Assembly (NCBI GenBank): GCA_003247275.1
Contig: QKAA01000028.1
Span: forward strand, 1 to 11,461
Reading direction: 5' to 3'
From: a bacterium
Lineage (GTDB): Bacteria > Patescibacteriota > Microgenomatia > UBA1400 > RBG-16-45-19
DNA: 11,461 bases
In this document: piece after piece, positions 6,172 to 9,378 of the stretch
Layout of the letters: every line of letters begins with the position of its first letter
Numbering within the stretch: position 1 is the stretch's first letter
The notes under the pieces: model-generated
Told to the model about the DNA's origin: nothing
Database searches by the model: none
Seen by the model: only the letters and a program-made list of their open reading frames with translations
Position numbers and translations under genes: made by a program

Positions 6172-6735
6172 TTATTTACCTCCAGAGATACGTTTTTGAG
6201 GAACATGTTTGGCTGCTGTGGTAGCAGATTGAGGTTGTCTTGGAGCTTTGTTGACAACTTTCTCATCTTTGACTGGAGCAGTTTTTTTGGCAGTACTACT
6301 GGCAGGTTTCTTTGCTTCCTCTTTTTTGGTGGGAGCTTTTGCAGCTTCTTTATCTTTGGAAGATTTTGCCTCTACGGCTGGCTTCCAATCGAGGATTTCT
6401 AGTTTAACCATTTCAGCATCGTCACCACGGCGCTTGCCGATTTTAGAGATTTTTAAAAACCCACTTGAGCGGTTTAACTTGGGAGCAATTTCGTCAACTA
6501 AGCGGTTAACTGCTTTAGTTTGATTTAACTCTTGATCAATTAAGCGGCGGGCATGCACGGTATTCTTTTTAGCTTTGGTAATAAGCTTTTCAAAAGAGCC
6601 GCGAAGTGCGTTAGCTTTTGCTTTTGTGGTGGTAATTGAACCGTGCTCAATTAACGATAATGATAGATTTTTAAAGAGAGCACGACGACTGGTAATGTCG
6701 CGATTAAGTTGTTTGCCTTTTACTGCATGTCTCAT
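6172..6735 (-). CDS. rplQ: 50S ribosomal protein L17 with long basic tail
   Basis: The first ~117 residues match L17: MRHAVKGKQLNRDITSRRAL, NLSLSLIEHGSITTTKAKA (23-41), ELNQTKAVNRLVDEIAP (69-85) and the final beta strands with SGFLKISKIGKRRGDDAEMV and KLEILDW (111-117). L17 lies near the exit of the peptide tunnel. Residues 118-187 form a 70-residue Lys/Ala/Pro/Ser-rich extension, probably disordered, absent from the standard ~120-residue protein. The start at 6735 has AGGGGA (6744-6749) 8 bases upstream, a good Shine-Dalgarno. The gene follows rpoA by 22 bases, the usual alpha-operon order. Confidence 0.96.
   Translation of the reverse strand: MRHAVKGKQLNRDITSRRALFKNLSLSLIEHGSITTTKAKANALRGSFEKLITKAKKNTVHARRLIDQELNQTKAVNRLVDEIAPKLNRSSGFLKISKIGKRRGDDAEMVKLEILDWKPAVEAKSSKDKEAAKAPTKKEEAKKPASSTAKKTAPVKDEKVVNKAPRQPQSATTAAKHVPQKRISGGK
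6178..6183 (-). promoter_or_regulatory. Consensus ribosome binding site of rplM inside rplQ
   Basis: GGAGGT on the minus strand encodes the Gly-Gly near the C-terminus of L17 and sits 8 bases before the rplM ATG. It is the strongest Shine-Dalgarno in the window and decides the rplM start. Confidence 0.8.
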
Positions 6736-6757: not shown

Positions 6758-7678
6758 TTATGACTTTTTCAAGTCGAGACCCTTCTGTTGCAAAGCTGCG
6801 ACCACGATATCTACAGACTTTTCACCCAAATTTTTAACTTTGGCAATACTATCGTTATCTGCATTGCAGAGATCTTTAACGGTTGGATAACCACCTTTTC
6901 GAAGAGCGTTGGCAATTCTGGTAGGAAGATCTAATTCTTCAACAGTTAAGCGCATGACTTCGTTTTCAGCTGGAGTCAATTCTGGTTCAACTTCTGGAGT
7001 TTCAACGATGATAGGATCGAAAATTTGTTTGAAGTGAGCAACGAGAATTTTTGCTGCTTTTTCTAAGGCATCTTTGGCATCAATGGTGCCATCAGTCCAG
7101 ATGTCGATAATTAAATTGTCGAAATCGGTTCGGCGACCAACACGAGTGGCCTCAACTTTGTAGGCAACACGAGTGATAGGAGAAAAAGAAGCGTCAACAG
7201 GAATGTCTCCTAAGGTGGACACGTCTTGTTCTGAAGCAGGAGCGTAACCACGACCACGAGCAATAGTAATCTCGGCTGAAAGTGATTTCTTGGCGGCTAA
7301 AGTAGCGAGTTCTTGTTCAGGATTAGCTAAAACAACACCTGCGGGTAAAGAAATGTCTTTACCGGTTACAGTTTTATCGCCTTTAGCTTCTAATTTAACA
7401 ACAACTTCATCTTCTTTTTCTAAACTGAAACGTAATTGTTTAACGTTTAAGACGAATTCGACGATATCTTCTCGCATGCCTTCAAGTGAAGAAAATTGAT
7501 GTTGAATACCATCAATTCTGACTTTGGTAACGGCAGCGCCCTGAATTGAAGACAACAAAACTCGGCGTAAACTGACGCCCAGAGTGTGACCGTATCCTTT
7601 TTCTAAAGGCTCGAGGGTCAAACGAGCATGATTTTTCTCAATTGTCTCTGGGACAACTGTAAATGTTGGTTGTAGCAT
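6758..7678 (-). CDS. rpoA: RNA polymerase alpha subunit
   Basis: The 306-residue product has the alpha NTD (about 1-225), with LEPLEKGYGHTLG, SLRRVLLSSIQGAAV and the EDIVEFVLNVKQL segment for dimerisation and beta/beta' contact. A Pro/Glu-rich linker follows (about 225-240), then the alpha CTD (about 242-306). The CTD keeps the DNA-contacting residues: R254 and N257 (TRIANALR), G285, K287 and S288 (NLGEKS), so UP-element recognition should be possible. I place the start at 7678 rather than at the upstream in-frame ATG at 7693. AAAGGAG (7684-7690) lies 5 bases before 7678, and MLQPTFTVVPE is the normal alpha N-terminus. It lies between rpsD and rplQ as in other bacteria. Its 91-base 5' spacer can fold into a pseudoknot and may control it separately from the ribosomal proteins. 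Confidence 0.97.
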   Translation of the reverse strand: MLQPTFTVVPETIEKNHARLTLEPLEKGYGHTLGVSLRRVLLSSIQGAAVTKVRIDGIQHQFSSLEGMREDIVEFVLNVKQLRFSLEKEDEVVVKLEAKGDKTVTGKDISLPAGVVLANPEQELATLAAKKSLSAEITIARGRGYAPASEQDVSTLGDIPVDASFSPITRVAYKVEATRVGRRTDFDNLIIDIWTDGTIDAKDALEKAAKILVAHFKQIFDPIIVETPEVEPELTPAENEVMRLTVEELDLPTRIANALRKGGYPTVKDLCNADNDSIAKVKNLGEKSVDIVVAALQQKGLDLKKS

Positions 7679-7683
7679 GGTTT

Positions 7684-7690
7684 CTCCTTT
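7684..7690 (-). promoter_or_regulatory. Ribosome binding site deciding the rpoA start
   Basis: AAAGGAG on the minus strand lies 5 bases before the ATG at 7678. It also sits within the codons of the longer open frame that begins at 7693, which shows that the longer start is not used. Confidence 0.8.
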
Positions 7691-7698
7691 CATAATTT

Positions 7699-7763
7699 CT
7701 CGTGGTTCCCGATAGTGCTAACCATGCTATTTTTGGAACTAGCACCATCATCTGAGTCACGAG
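7699..7763 (-). ncRNA. rpoA leader: clamp stem enclosing a possible pseudoknot
   Basis: In minus-strand RNA, CUCGUG (7758-7763) and CACGAG (7699-7704) form a perfect 6-bp outer stem that encloses about 53 bases. Inside, GUGCUA (7740-7745) pairs with UAGCAC (7715-7720), and the adjoining GUUCC (7735-7739) pairs with GGAAC (7705-7709). These two stems cross, as in an H-type pseudoknot. A competing nested fold exists: UGCUA with an earlier UAGCA copy (7725-7729), plus GGUU with AACC, the latter eating into the outer stem. The element lies between the rpsD stop and the rpoA Shine-Dalgarno, with no open frame. Ribosomal protein S4 is known to bind a pseudoknot in the enterobacterial alpha operon leader, so S4 is a natural candidate ligand here. 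RNA processing is the alternative. Confidence 0.5.
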
Positions 7764-7769
7764 CGGTTA

Positions 7770-8378
7770 TTATCTCGAATAATACTCAACGACTAAATTT
7801 TCATTAATGTCGATATCAACGTCATCTCGACTAGGAGCGGCTTTAACGTTGCCTGATAATCCTTGTCGTTCTAGCCATTTGGGCATATTTTTGCCTTTTT
7901 CTTCAAGTGATCCAGCAACAGATGGAATTTTTGAAGCTTTTTCACTTATACCAATTTTCATGCCAGCAGCGACTTGGAAAGAGGGCCTATCGAGCTTGGC
8001 TCCGTTGACTTTAACGTGTCCGTGAACAATTAATTGTCTGGCAGCAGCTCTGGTAGGAGCAAAGCCCAAGCGATAGACAACGTTATCTAAGCGTGATTCT
8101 AATAATCGAAGCATTTCTTTACCGGTTTCACCCGTTTTTTTACTGGCTTTGGTGTAGTAACGGCTGAATTGTTTTTCTAATAAACCATAGGTCCATTTCA
8201 TTTTTTGTTTTTCGCGCAATTGAATACCATATTCAGATAGTTTTTTGGCACCCTTGCGACCATGTTGTCCAGGGGGGATATTTAATCGTTTAGCTAATTT
8301 AGTAGATCCAGTTTTTAATCCTAAATCAGCTCCTGATCGTCTGGATAATTTATTTTTTGGACCGGTATATCTTGCCAT
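7770..8378 (-). CDS. rpsD: 30S ribosomal protein S4
   Basis: From the ATG at 8378 the product has 202 residues and begins MARYTGPKNKLSRR, the normal S4 N-terminus. An in-frame upstream TTG (8399) would add seven unlikely residues. The zinc-binding cysteines of C+ S4 proteins are absent, so this is the C- form. The S4 RNA-binding domain spans about 93-155 (LESRLDNVVYRLGFAPTRAA, then HGHVKVNGAKLDRPS). The C-terminus ends NENLVVEYYSR. S4 is a primary 16S rRNA binder that nucleates small-subunit assembly and, in well studied bacteria, represses its own operon. No good Shine-Dalgarno precedes the ATG. Instead a stem-loop ends 10 bases upstream. It follows rpsK by 43 bases and precedes the structured rpoA leader. 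Confidence 0.97.
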   Translation of the reverse strand: MARYTGPKNKLSRRSGADLGLKTGSTKLAKRLNIPPGQHGRKGAKKLSEYGIQLREKQKMKWTYGLLEKQFSRYYTKASKKTGETGKEMLRLLESRLDNVVYRLGFAPTRAAARQLIVHGHVKVNGAKLDRPSFQVAAGMKIGISEKASKIPSVAGSLEEKGKNMPKWLERQGLSGNVKAAPSRDDVDIDINENLVVEYYSR

Positions 8379-8847: not shown

Positions 8848-9237
8848 TTATGCTGCTTTCTTTACTGCATCATCCTTCTTCATGGCGCCAACAGTGCGGC
8901 GTTTGCCACGACGAGTACGAGCATTTACTCTGGTTCTTTGGCCACGAGAAGGAAGATTAGCGGTATGACGCATACCTCGGTATGAGCCAATACGCTTTAA
9001 GTTTTGAATGTTGTCGCGGATTTTTTGACGAAGAACACCTTCAATGGGATATTGCTCAATGGCGCGCTGAAGACGATTTAATTCGTCAGCAGTTAAATCT
9101 TTAGCCCTGGTATCAGGGTTAACTTTGGCTTGTTTGAGAATATCTTCTACATTGGAACGGCCGATACCGAAGATATAGGTAAGAGCTATCTCGGTTCGTT
9201 TGTTATCTGGTATATCAATTCCTGCGATACGTGGCAT
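8848..9237 (-). CDS. rpsM: 30S ribosomal protein S13
   Basis: The 129-residue product begins MPRIAGIDIPDNKRTEIALT and continues YIFGIGRSNVEDIL, VEDILKQAKVNPDTRAKDLT, and IGSYRGMRHTANLPSRGQRT with the basic NARTRRGKRRTVG tail, all diagnostic for S13. S13 forms the inter-subunit bridge in the head of the small subunit, and its tail approaches P-site tRNA. The tail ends in a lysine/alanine-rich stretch. There is no Shine-Dalgarno in the AT-only 27-base spacer after rpmJ, so translation may depend on coupling or on an unstructured leader. Confidence 0.98.
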   Translation of the reverse strand: MPRIAGIDIPDNKRTEIALTYIFGIGRSNVEDILKQAKVNPDTRAKDLTADELNRLQRAIEQYPIEGVLRQKIRDNIQNLKRIGSYRGMRHTANLPSRGQRTRVNARTRRGKRRTVGAMKKDDAVKKAA

Positions 9238-9264
9238 ATTATTTATTTATTCTTTAATTAGTAA

Positions 9265-9378
9265 TTATCCTTGGCGTTGTTTATGACGTGGATTGGTGCA
9301 AACAATACGAATTACACCTTTTCGTCGGACTATTTTACACTGTTTGCATCGTTTTTTAACGCTGGCTTTTACTTTCAT
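9265..9378 (-). CDS. rpmJ: 50S ribosomal protein L36 (zinc-binding form)
   Basis: This small gene encodes 37 residues starting [20 protein letters not shown] and ending RHKQRQG before TAA (9265-9267). C11, C14, C27 and H32 form the CxxC-x12-C-x4-H zinc ribbon of the C+ form of L36. The size, sequence and position between infA and rpsM are all canonical. L36 is the smallest protein of the large subunit and binds 23S rRNA near L6. A weak purine-rich AAGAGA precedes the ATG. It is easily missed by gene callers with a length cutoff. Confidence 0.97.

Follow-up and report, generated by a model that had tools for sequence, protein, structure and literature searches.

In Escherichia coli, ribosomal protein S4 represses the cistrons for uS13, uS11, uS4, and bL17 within its own operon and spares the intervening one, as reported in PMC10931766. 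The spared cistron is rpoA, because the gene order puts it between those of uS4 and bL17, and since rpoA is thus reported to escape S4 repression, how the supply of RNA polymerase subunit alpha is matched to that of ribosomes is a standing question. The E. coli S4 pseudoknot, i.e., the Rfam family RF00140 (Alpha_RBS), stands before rpsM and overlaps translation initiation; S4 bound to it traps the 30S subunit. For the same genes, structured leaders reported as S4 leader candidates are listed in Bacteroidia, Clostridia, Flavobacteria, and Fusobacteriales (Eckert and Weinberg 2020, PMC7247131); in the part of that source available to us the listed genes begin with rpsD or rpsM and none with rpoA, and we read these candidates as lying upstream of rpsD or rpsM. 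Also described is a regulatory RNA that lies within a ribosomal protein operon where a later cistron begins, namely the site from which S8 acts inside the E. coli spc operon, with retroregulation (PMC10931766); the element discussed below is likened to it by position, not by sequence, and both the protein and the operon are different.

The window considered here, that is, the whole stretch of 11,461 nt that was analysed (contig C31), comes from a draft genome of 696,481 bases with 89.78% completeness, and its minus strand has the gene order rpsM-rpsK-rpsD-rpoA-rplQ. Loci of the same order that are identical in sequence to named contigs bear the names Candidatus Pacebacteria, Candidatus Woesebacteria, Candidatus Microgenomatus, and Patescibacteria. 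Its rpsD-rpoA spacer holds an element, read as RNA from the minus strand (7769 to 7694), which is probably an undescribed switch for making RNA polymerase alpha and not the pseudoknot proposed for it at first. As the preliminary description had noted, it stands directly before rpoA, with the S4 gene directly upstream; it thus shares with RF00140 the operon and the presence of the S4 gene, and differs from it in standing between rpsD and rpoA. The comparison with Rfam that had been suggested left it without a family: with Rfam 15 and E up to 5, nothing reached the gathering score in the whole window or in 20 related loci (15 of type I and 4 of type II, as defined below, and others). A snoR53Y match at 7705-7740 on the plus strand (22.6 bits against a cut-off of 43) concerns a eukaryotic family and the other strand, and was taken as chance. 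Among the papers listed from an open-licence library, none deals with an rpsD-rpoA spacer element. Given that there is no Rfam match, and that known S4 sites and leaders lie at rpsM or rpsD, we regard the element as new, a structured RNA whose general kind is known and whose position is unusual.

The features of the locus are collected in Table 1. For rpoA, an in-frame AUG at 7693 is also present in the list of open reading frames, and the start at 7678 is preferred because of the Shine-Dalgarno spacing and the alignment of homologues. The L17 protein encoded by rplQ has a long C-terminal tail rich in lysine and alanine, and its best NCBIfam score is with the "sunset domain variant" model, under the cut-off of that model.

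Table 1. Coordinates of the spacer element and of the neighbouring genes in the window
Feature	Positions	Strand	Basis or remark
P1 5' arm, CUCGUG	7758..7763	-	sequence, minimum free energy fold; 6 of 8 P1 positions paired in the type II count
Internal loop, 5' strand, ACUCAGAU, contains conserved C-RGA-N	7750..7757	-	common to L004, L010, L039, and L009
P2 5' arm, GAUGGUGCUA	7740..7749	-	fold and type II comparison; reaches 7737 with G-U pairs
GUUCC, 5' side of crossing stem with GGAAC 7709-7705	7735..7739	-	not conserved
P2 loop segment, UAGCAUGGUU	7720..7729	-	10-nt complement of the rpoA start region
P2 3' arm, UAGCACUAUC	7711..7720	-	minimum free energy fold and type II comparison
Internal loop, 3' strand, GGGAAC, conserved GGGA[AC][AC]	7705..7710	-	type II comparison
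P1 3' arm, CACGAG	7699..7704	-	sequence, minimum free energy fold, type II comparison
rpoA start region, AACCAUGCUA, complementary to P2 loop	7673..7682	-	complementarity scan
Shine-Dalgarno of rpoA, AAAGGAG	7684..7690	-	sequence
rpsD, ribosomal protein S4	7770..8378	-	directly upstream of element
rpoA, RNA polymerase subunit alpha	6758..7678	-	start AUG 7678-7676
rplQ, ribosomal protein L17, next after rpoA	6172..6735	-	open reading frame list and family models

The free minimum of the element is a nested fold that uses the perfect 6-bp clamp already pointed out in the preliminary description (P1 of Table 1) and a hairpin, P2, of 10 pairs, or 13 when the terminal G-U pairs are included, which is longer than the stem drawn there and had been overlooked; the last base of its loop segment UAGCAUGGUU is also the first base of its 3' arm. 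The nested fold has an energy of -25.9 kcal/mol (z -4.16; 0 of 200 shuffles equally good), and on a longer stretch z is -3.43 with 2 of 200 shuffles equally good; according to the folding model, the plain nested fold is much more stable than its composition would suggest.

The spacer was then compared across the order, where the window's genus counts one genome and its family two. RpoA was matched in 86 of the 88 genomes, and leaving out G019 and G046 (no rpoA match) together with G027 and G062 (a C-terminal piece only) gave 84 readable rpsD-rpoA spacers. They divide into 37 with a form termed type I, five with a form termed type II, one degenerate type I (G031, locus L008; 14.2 bits, E 0.34), which is counted in neither type, and 41 with neither, an assignment made by reading the spacers by eye, with a pattern, and with the covariance model R1 described below. 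Type I is carried by 36 genomes of family f10 and by G073 of f11; type II by the window genome (f1), G002 (f2), and G074, G075, and G076 (f11), and f11 contains both types. The only other genome of the window's family, the sibling G001, has a 45-nt spacer with neither form. A different clamp-and-hairpin, with UGCGGGAUA preceding the hairpin, occurs in this spacer in two f15 genomes (L006 of G086 and L063 of G087) and is possibly a further form; a third f15 genome (L013) is without it.

The five type II spacers follow one order: a closing G-C pair, 1-5 nt, C-RGA-N, a P2 closed by G-C, GGGA[AC][AC], and C. What is kept is the clamp P1, an asymmetric internal loop in which CRGA-N faces GGGA[AC][AC], and the hairpin P2, all of them nested. 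With arms placed by hand in the script, three of the five being delimited by typed patterns, P2 pairs with its own partner at 7, 6, 7, 7, and 7 of 7 positions (window, L004, L010, L039, and L009, in this order here and below), against a mean of 3.25 and a maximum of 5 in 20 cross pairings. For P1 the corresponding values are 6, 8, 7, 7, and 3 of 8, against a cross mean of 3.95 and a maximum of 6, so that the window P1 merely equals the best cross pairing; the low value of L009 comes from an ungapped test, and its minimum free energy fold shows a P1-like stem. The MAFFT alignments of type II (A3, A4, and A5) misplaced the stems and were discarded, which is why there is no covariance model for this type. 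A type II descriptor, scanned over 2,656,260 bases (both strands counted, duplicate loci included), found six distinct sites, i.e., the five spacers and one in L136, an unrelated Desulfofundulus contig, and a similar pattern had the element as its sole match in the window's own genome (189 kb, both strands); both descriptors were written after the sequences had been seen, with the window in view, and the window's match is therefore not independent. In the same way, the window fits the type II definition (CRGA-N, a flush P2 closed by G-C, GGGA[AC][AC]C), which includes the window. Five genomes, drawn from three families, keep the nested fold at one and the same place despite sequence change.

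The pseudoknot proposed in the preliminary description fared differently. Its parts are in the letters as described: besides the clamp, the perfect 6-bp stem GUGCUA 7745-7740 / UAGCAC 7720-7715, the 5-bp crossing stem GUUCC/GGAAC of Table 1, a second UAGCA copy at 7729-7725, and GGUU 7723-7720 with AACC 7707-7704. When the spacer was shuffled 20000 times with its dinucleotides preserved, a perfect 6-bp clamp around perfect crossing stems of 6 and 5 bp appeared in 8 of the shuffles; the same geometry occurs in 62 of 37512 windows of 76 nt (step 10, both strands, 189,055 bases of the own genome); it is uncommon, not unique. Between the P2 interior and the GGGA strand, complementarity extends over at most 5 nt in the window and over at most 3, 2, 3, and 2 nt in the other four type II spacers, so that the crossing stem is lost in these relatives, the outcome which the preliminary description itself had named as refuting it; GGGAAC, which this stem needs, is the conserved internal-loop strand. 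The same measure in type I ranges from 1 to 5 nt, and 5 of the 37 rows reach 5, a count in which leftover P2 arm is included.

Structural conservation of an RNA element holds for part of the order, and P2 of type I shows covariation. The type I consensus is C-RGA-[P2]-GRN-GAAAC; all 37 rows fit it, all of the elements lie within the rpsD-rpoA spacer, and Shine-Dalgarno-like letters follow 0-4 nt after each. R1 was built from 26 of these rows, with the remaining 11 of the 37 matches outside the model. In the 37-row alignment P2 is paired in 98.6% of 216 cells, against 78.3% when shuffled and 74.5-79.2% when slid; its covariation score is 0.718 against 0.328 (0 of 500 shuffles that high), and 61 cells have both sides changed against 21.5 in shuffles. 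Five pairs had a double change, which 126 of 500 shuffles equalled, and there were 11 pair types, equalled in 486 of 500; all these pairing figures lean towards structure because the alignment was fitted to R1. The consensus predicted by a tool on alignment A1 has the same six P2 pairs. Across the class Microgenomatia (373 genomes), R1 had matches at E <= 0.01 in 22, of which 20 belong to the window's order; the matches in G171 (E 0.0027) and G354 (E 0.0059) fall within long reading frames, whose gene identity was judged by eye, and were taken as chance, and second matches in some genomes have E 0.08 or worse.

As a detector for the window element R1 failed: with filters off it gave 0.3 bits in the window, at another place, and no score on the other type II spacers. 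Because R1 does not score the window, we infer the kinship of the two types by other means. Both stand at the same site and occur together in f11, and in both CRGA precedes P2 and a G-rich GA[AC][AC]C strand follows it; judged from this the two types likely share an origin, though they may be unrelated.

The P2 loop has a second potential partner, which the preliminary description had not noticed. Its segment UAGCAUGGUU is complementary over 10 nt to AACCAUGCUA, which covers the rpoA start, and among 78 gene starts (Shine-Dalgarno-bearing and mechanically chosen from 189 kb of the own genome) no other match of this kind is as long, the next being one of 9, one of 8, and five of 7. The test across genomes covered 51 spacers of at least 45 nt with a placed start, six duplicate loci being excluded, and none of the start regions of 50 foreign genomes fitted the window spacer equally well. 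In f11, L004 and L039 have AUGGUAG/CUACCAU (7 nt) and GGUAG/CUACC spans 5 nt in L010; these matches start near -50 to -53, and that of the window at -51. Foreign starts fitted equally well in 7 of 50 cases for L004, 2 of 50 for L039, and 12 of 50 for L010, controls that are weak because the f11 genomes share CUACCAUG and by which the f11 matches do not stand out. No such match was found in L009 (f2), and a 7-nt one is present in the type I locus L085. At the fifth base pair the window has U-A where f11 has A-U, a single compensatory difference, read by eye. From this complementarity, present in the window and three f11 genomes, pairing of the P2 loop with the rpoA start could take place. Estimated energies are -13.4 kcal/mol for the loop-start duplex, -19.4 kcal/mol for the P1 and P2 core, and -26.1 kcal/mol for the free nested minimum, and the nested fold with the loop-start pairs forced has -20.3 kcal/mol; by these nested-model estimates both states appear reachable.

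On balance we lean towards the reading that the element is a cis-acting structured RNA 5' of rpoA that controls rpoA translation. Its absence from the sibling G001 and the 41 of 84 spacers with neither form speak against this. The action of the fold on translation would differ between the types. In type II, the P2 loop would pair with the start codon region of rpoA and block initiation, a loop-start pseudoknot that would be alike in principle to RF00140, whose structure also overlaps initiation. In type I, the element, by its closeness to the Shine-Dalgarno, could occlude it directly. A two-state switch, as in the preliminary description, may still operate here, with other partners than those it named: the P2 loop and the rpoA start codon. 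A ligand at the conserved internal loop would shift the balance between the states; what this ligand would be is a guess, with S4, whose gene is just upstream, first among the candidates by its neighbourhood, and with L17, alpha itself, or some other molecule as further options. The full picture, an undescribed RNA family in an order of Patescibacteria (Microgenomates) whose P2 loop captures the rpoA start codon, with the balance set by an internal-loop ligand, possibly S4, is one that we offer tentatively. As a separate observation, the P2 5' arm of type I is mostly pyrimidine (alignment A6), and its TTCCT matches the Shine-Dalgarno in L035, L036, L037, and L045; pairing of this arm with the Shine-Dalgarno could, from the letters, be an alternative switch.

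A different possibility, to which we give a limited chance, is that S4 feedback in this operon acts through the element, its site having shifted from the operon head to the rpsD-rpoA spacer, where bound S4 would repress rpoA-rplQ and perhaps destabilise the upstream messages. S8, which does so at the third cistron of the spc operon in E. coli, is the precedent for such action inside an operon with retroregulation (PMC10931766). The S4 gene lies just upstream in all of the spacers counted, and rpsM has no convincing alpha-operon element. RF00140 exceeds its curated cut-off (38 bits) in 0 of the 88 genomes and gives nothing at 7699-7763; with E up to 10, sub-threshold matches occur in 46 of the 88, the eight best by E-value lying about 1.5 kb upstream of rpoA, at the rpsM start, where the window has one as well (9205-9319, minus strand, 20.3 bits), and several relatives are alike. 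These matches were rejected as structural evidence, as in the five alignments inspected it is the opening codons of rpsM that carry the score, and the upstream helices are poor. Against a shifted S4 site, 41 of the 84 genomes have S4 upstream of rpoA and lack both forms, and the conserved strands are missing from the genome's own 16S rRNA: GGGA[AC][AC]C and G[AG]NGAAAC are both absent, and a relaxed scan gave five overlapping matches at one place, 975, which were taken as chance. The 23S rRNA, sought for the same mimicry comparison, was not found in this assembly. The 16S rRNA in question (L196, contig C15, 9333-10816) has GUGCCAGAAGCCUCGGCAAUGC in its 530-loop region, which differs from the usual universal sequence.

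It is improbable, in our estimate, that the element serves message processing or stability, for example as an RNase III site that sets the rpsD:rpoA message ratio with no ligand. A stable hairpin on a clamp, with the long P2 of the window, between genes of different demand would suit such a role; however, P2 of type I has just about 6 bp, which is short for RNase III, and processing needs neither conserved internal-loop letters nor closeness to the Shine-Dalgarno. Still less credit goes to the idea that the window hairpin arose by chance as an inverted repeat within a loose spacer and has no link to the elements found in other families. The sibling G001 without the element, the silence of R1 on the window, and a window P1 that does not exceed the best cross pairing would all agree with it, but the arrangement of CRGA-N, a flush G-C-closed P2, and GGGA[AC][AC]C recurs at the same place in five genomes with one other site in 2.66 Mb, and the z of the fold also argues against chance. 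Finally, the crossing pseudoknot (GUGCUA/UAGCAC with GUUCC/GGAAC) is very improbable as the functional fold, rare as its geometry is among shuffles, given that the crossing stem reaches 5 bp in the window only and that its duplex, at about -4.7 kcal/mol, has to compete with the P2 extension that it displaces.

The reading that we prefer, translational control by a structured RNA 5' of rpoA, specifies a definite candidate pairing, that of the loop UAGCAUGGUU with AACCAUGCUA, and the element represents one more family of structured RNA for which Rfam has no match. The result would be a control point for alpha that is separate from S13, S11, and S4; a conserved element at rpoA would be a control point of polymerase supply inside a ribosomal operon, in a setting of reduced genomes with little known regulation. 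If this is true, the supplies of polymerase and ribosome would be either uncoupled or cross-linked at rpoA.
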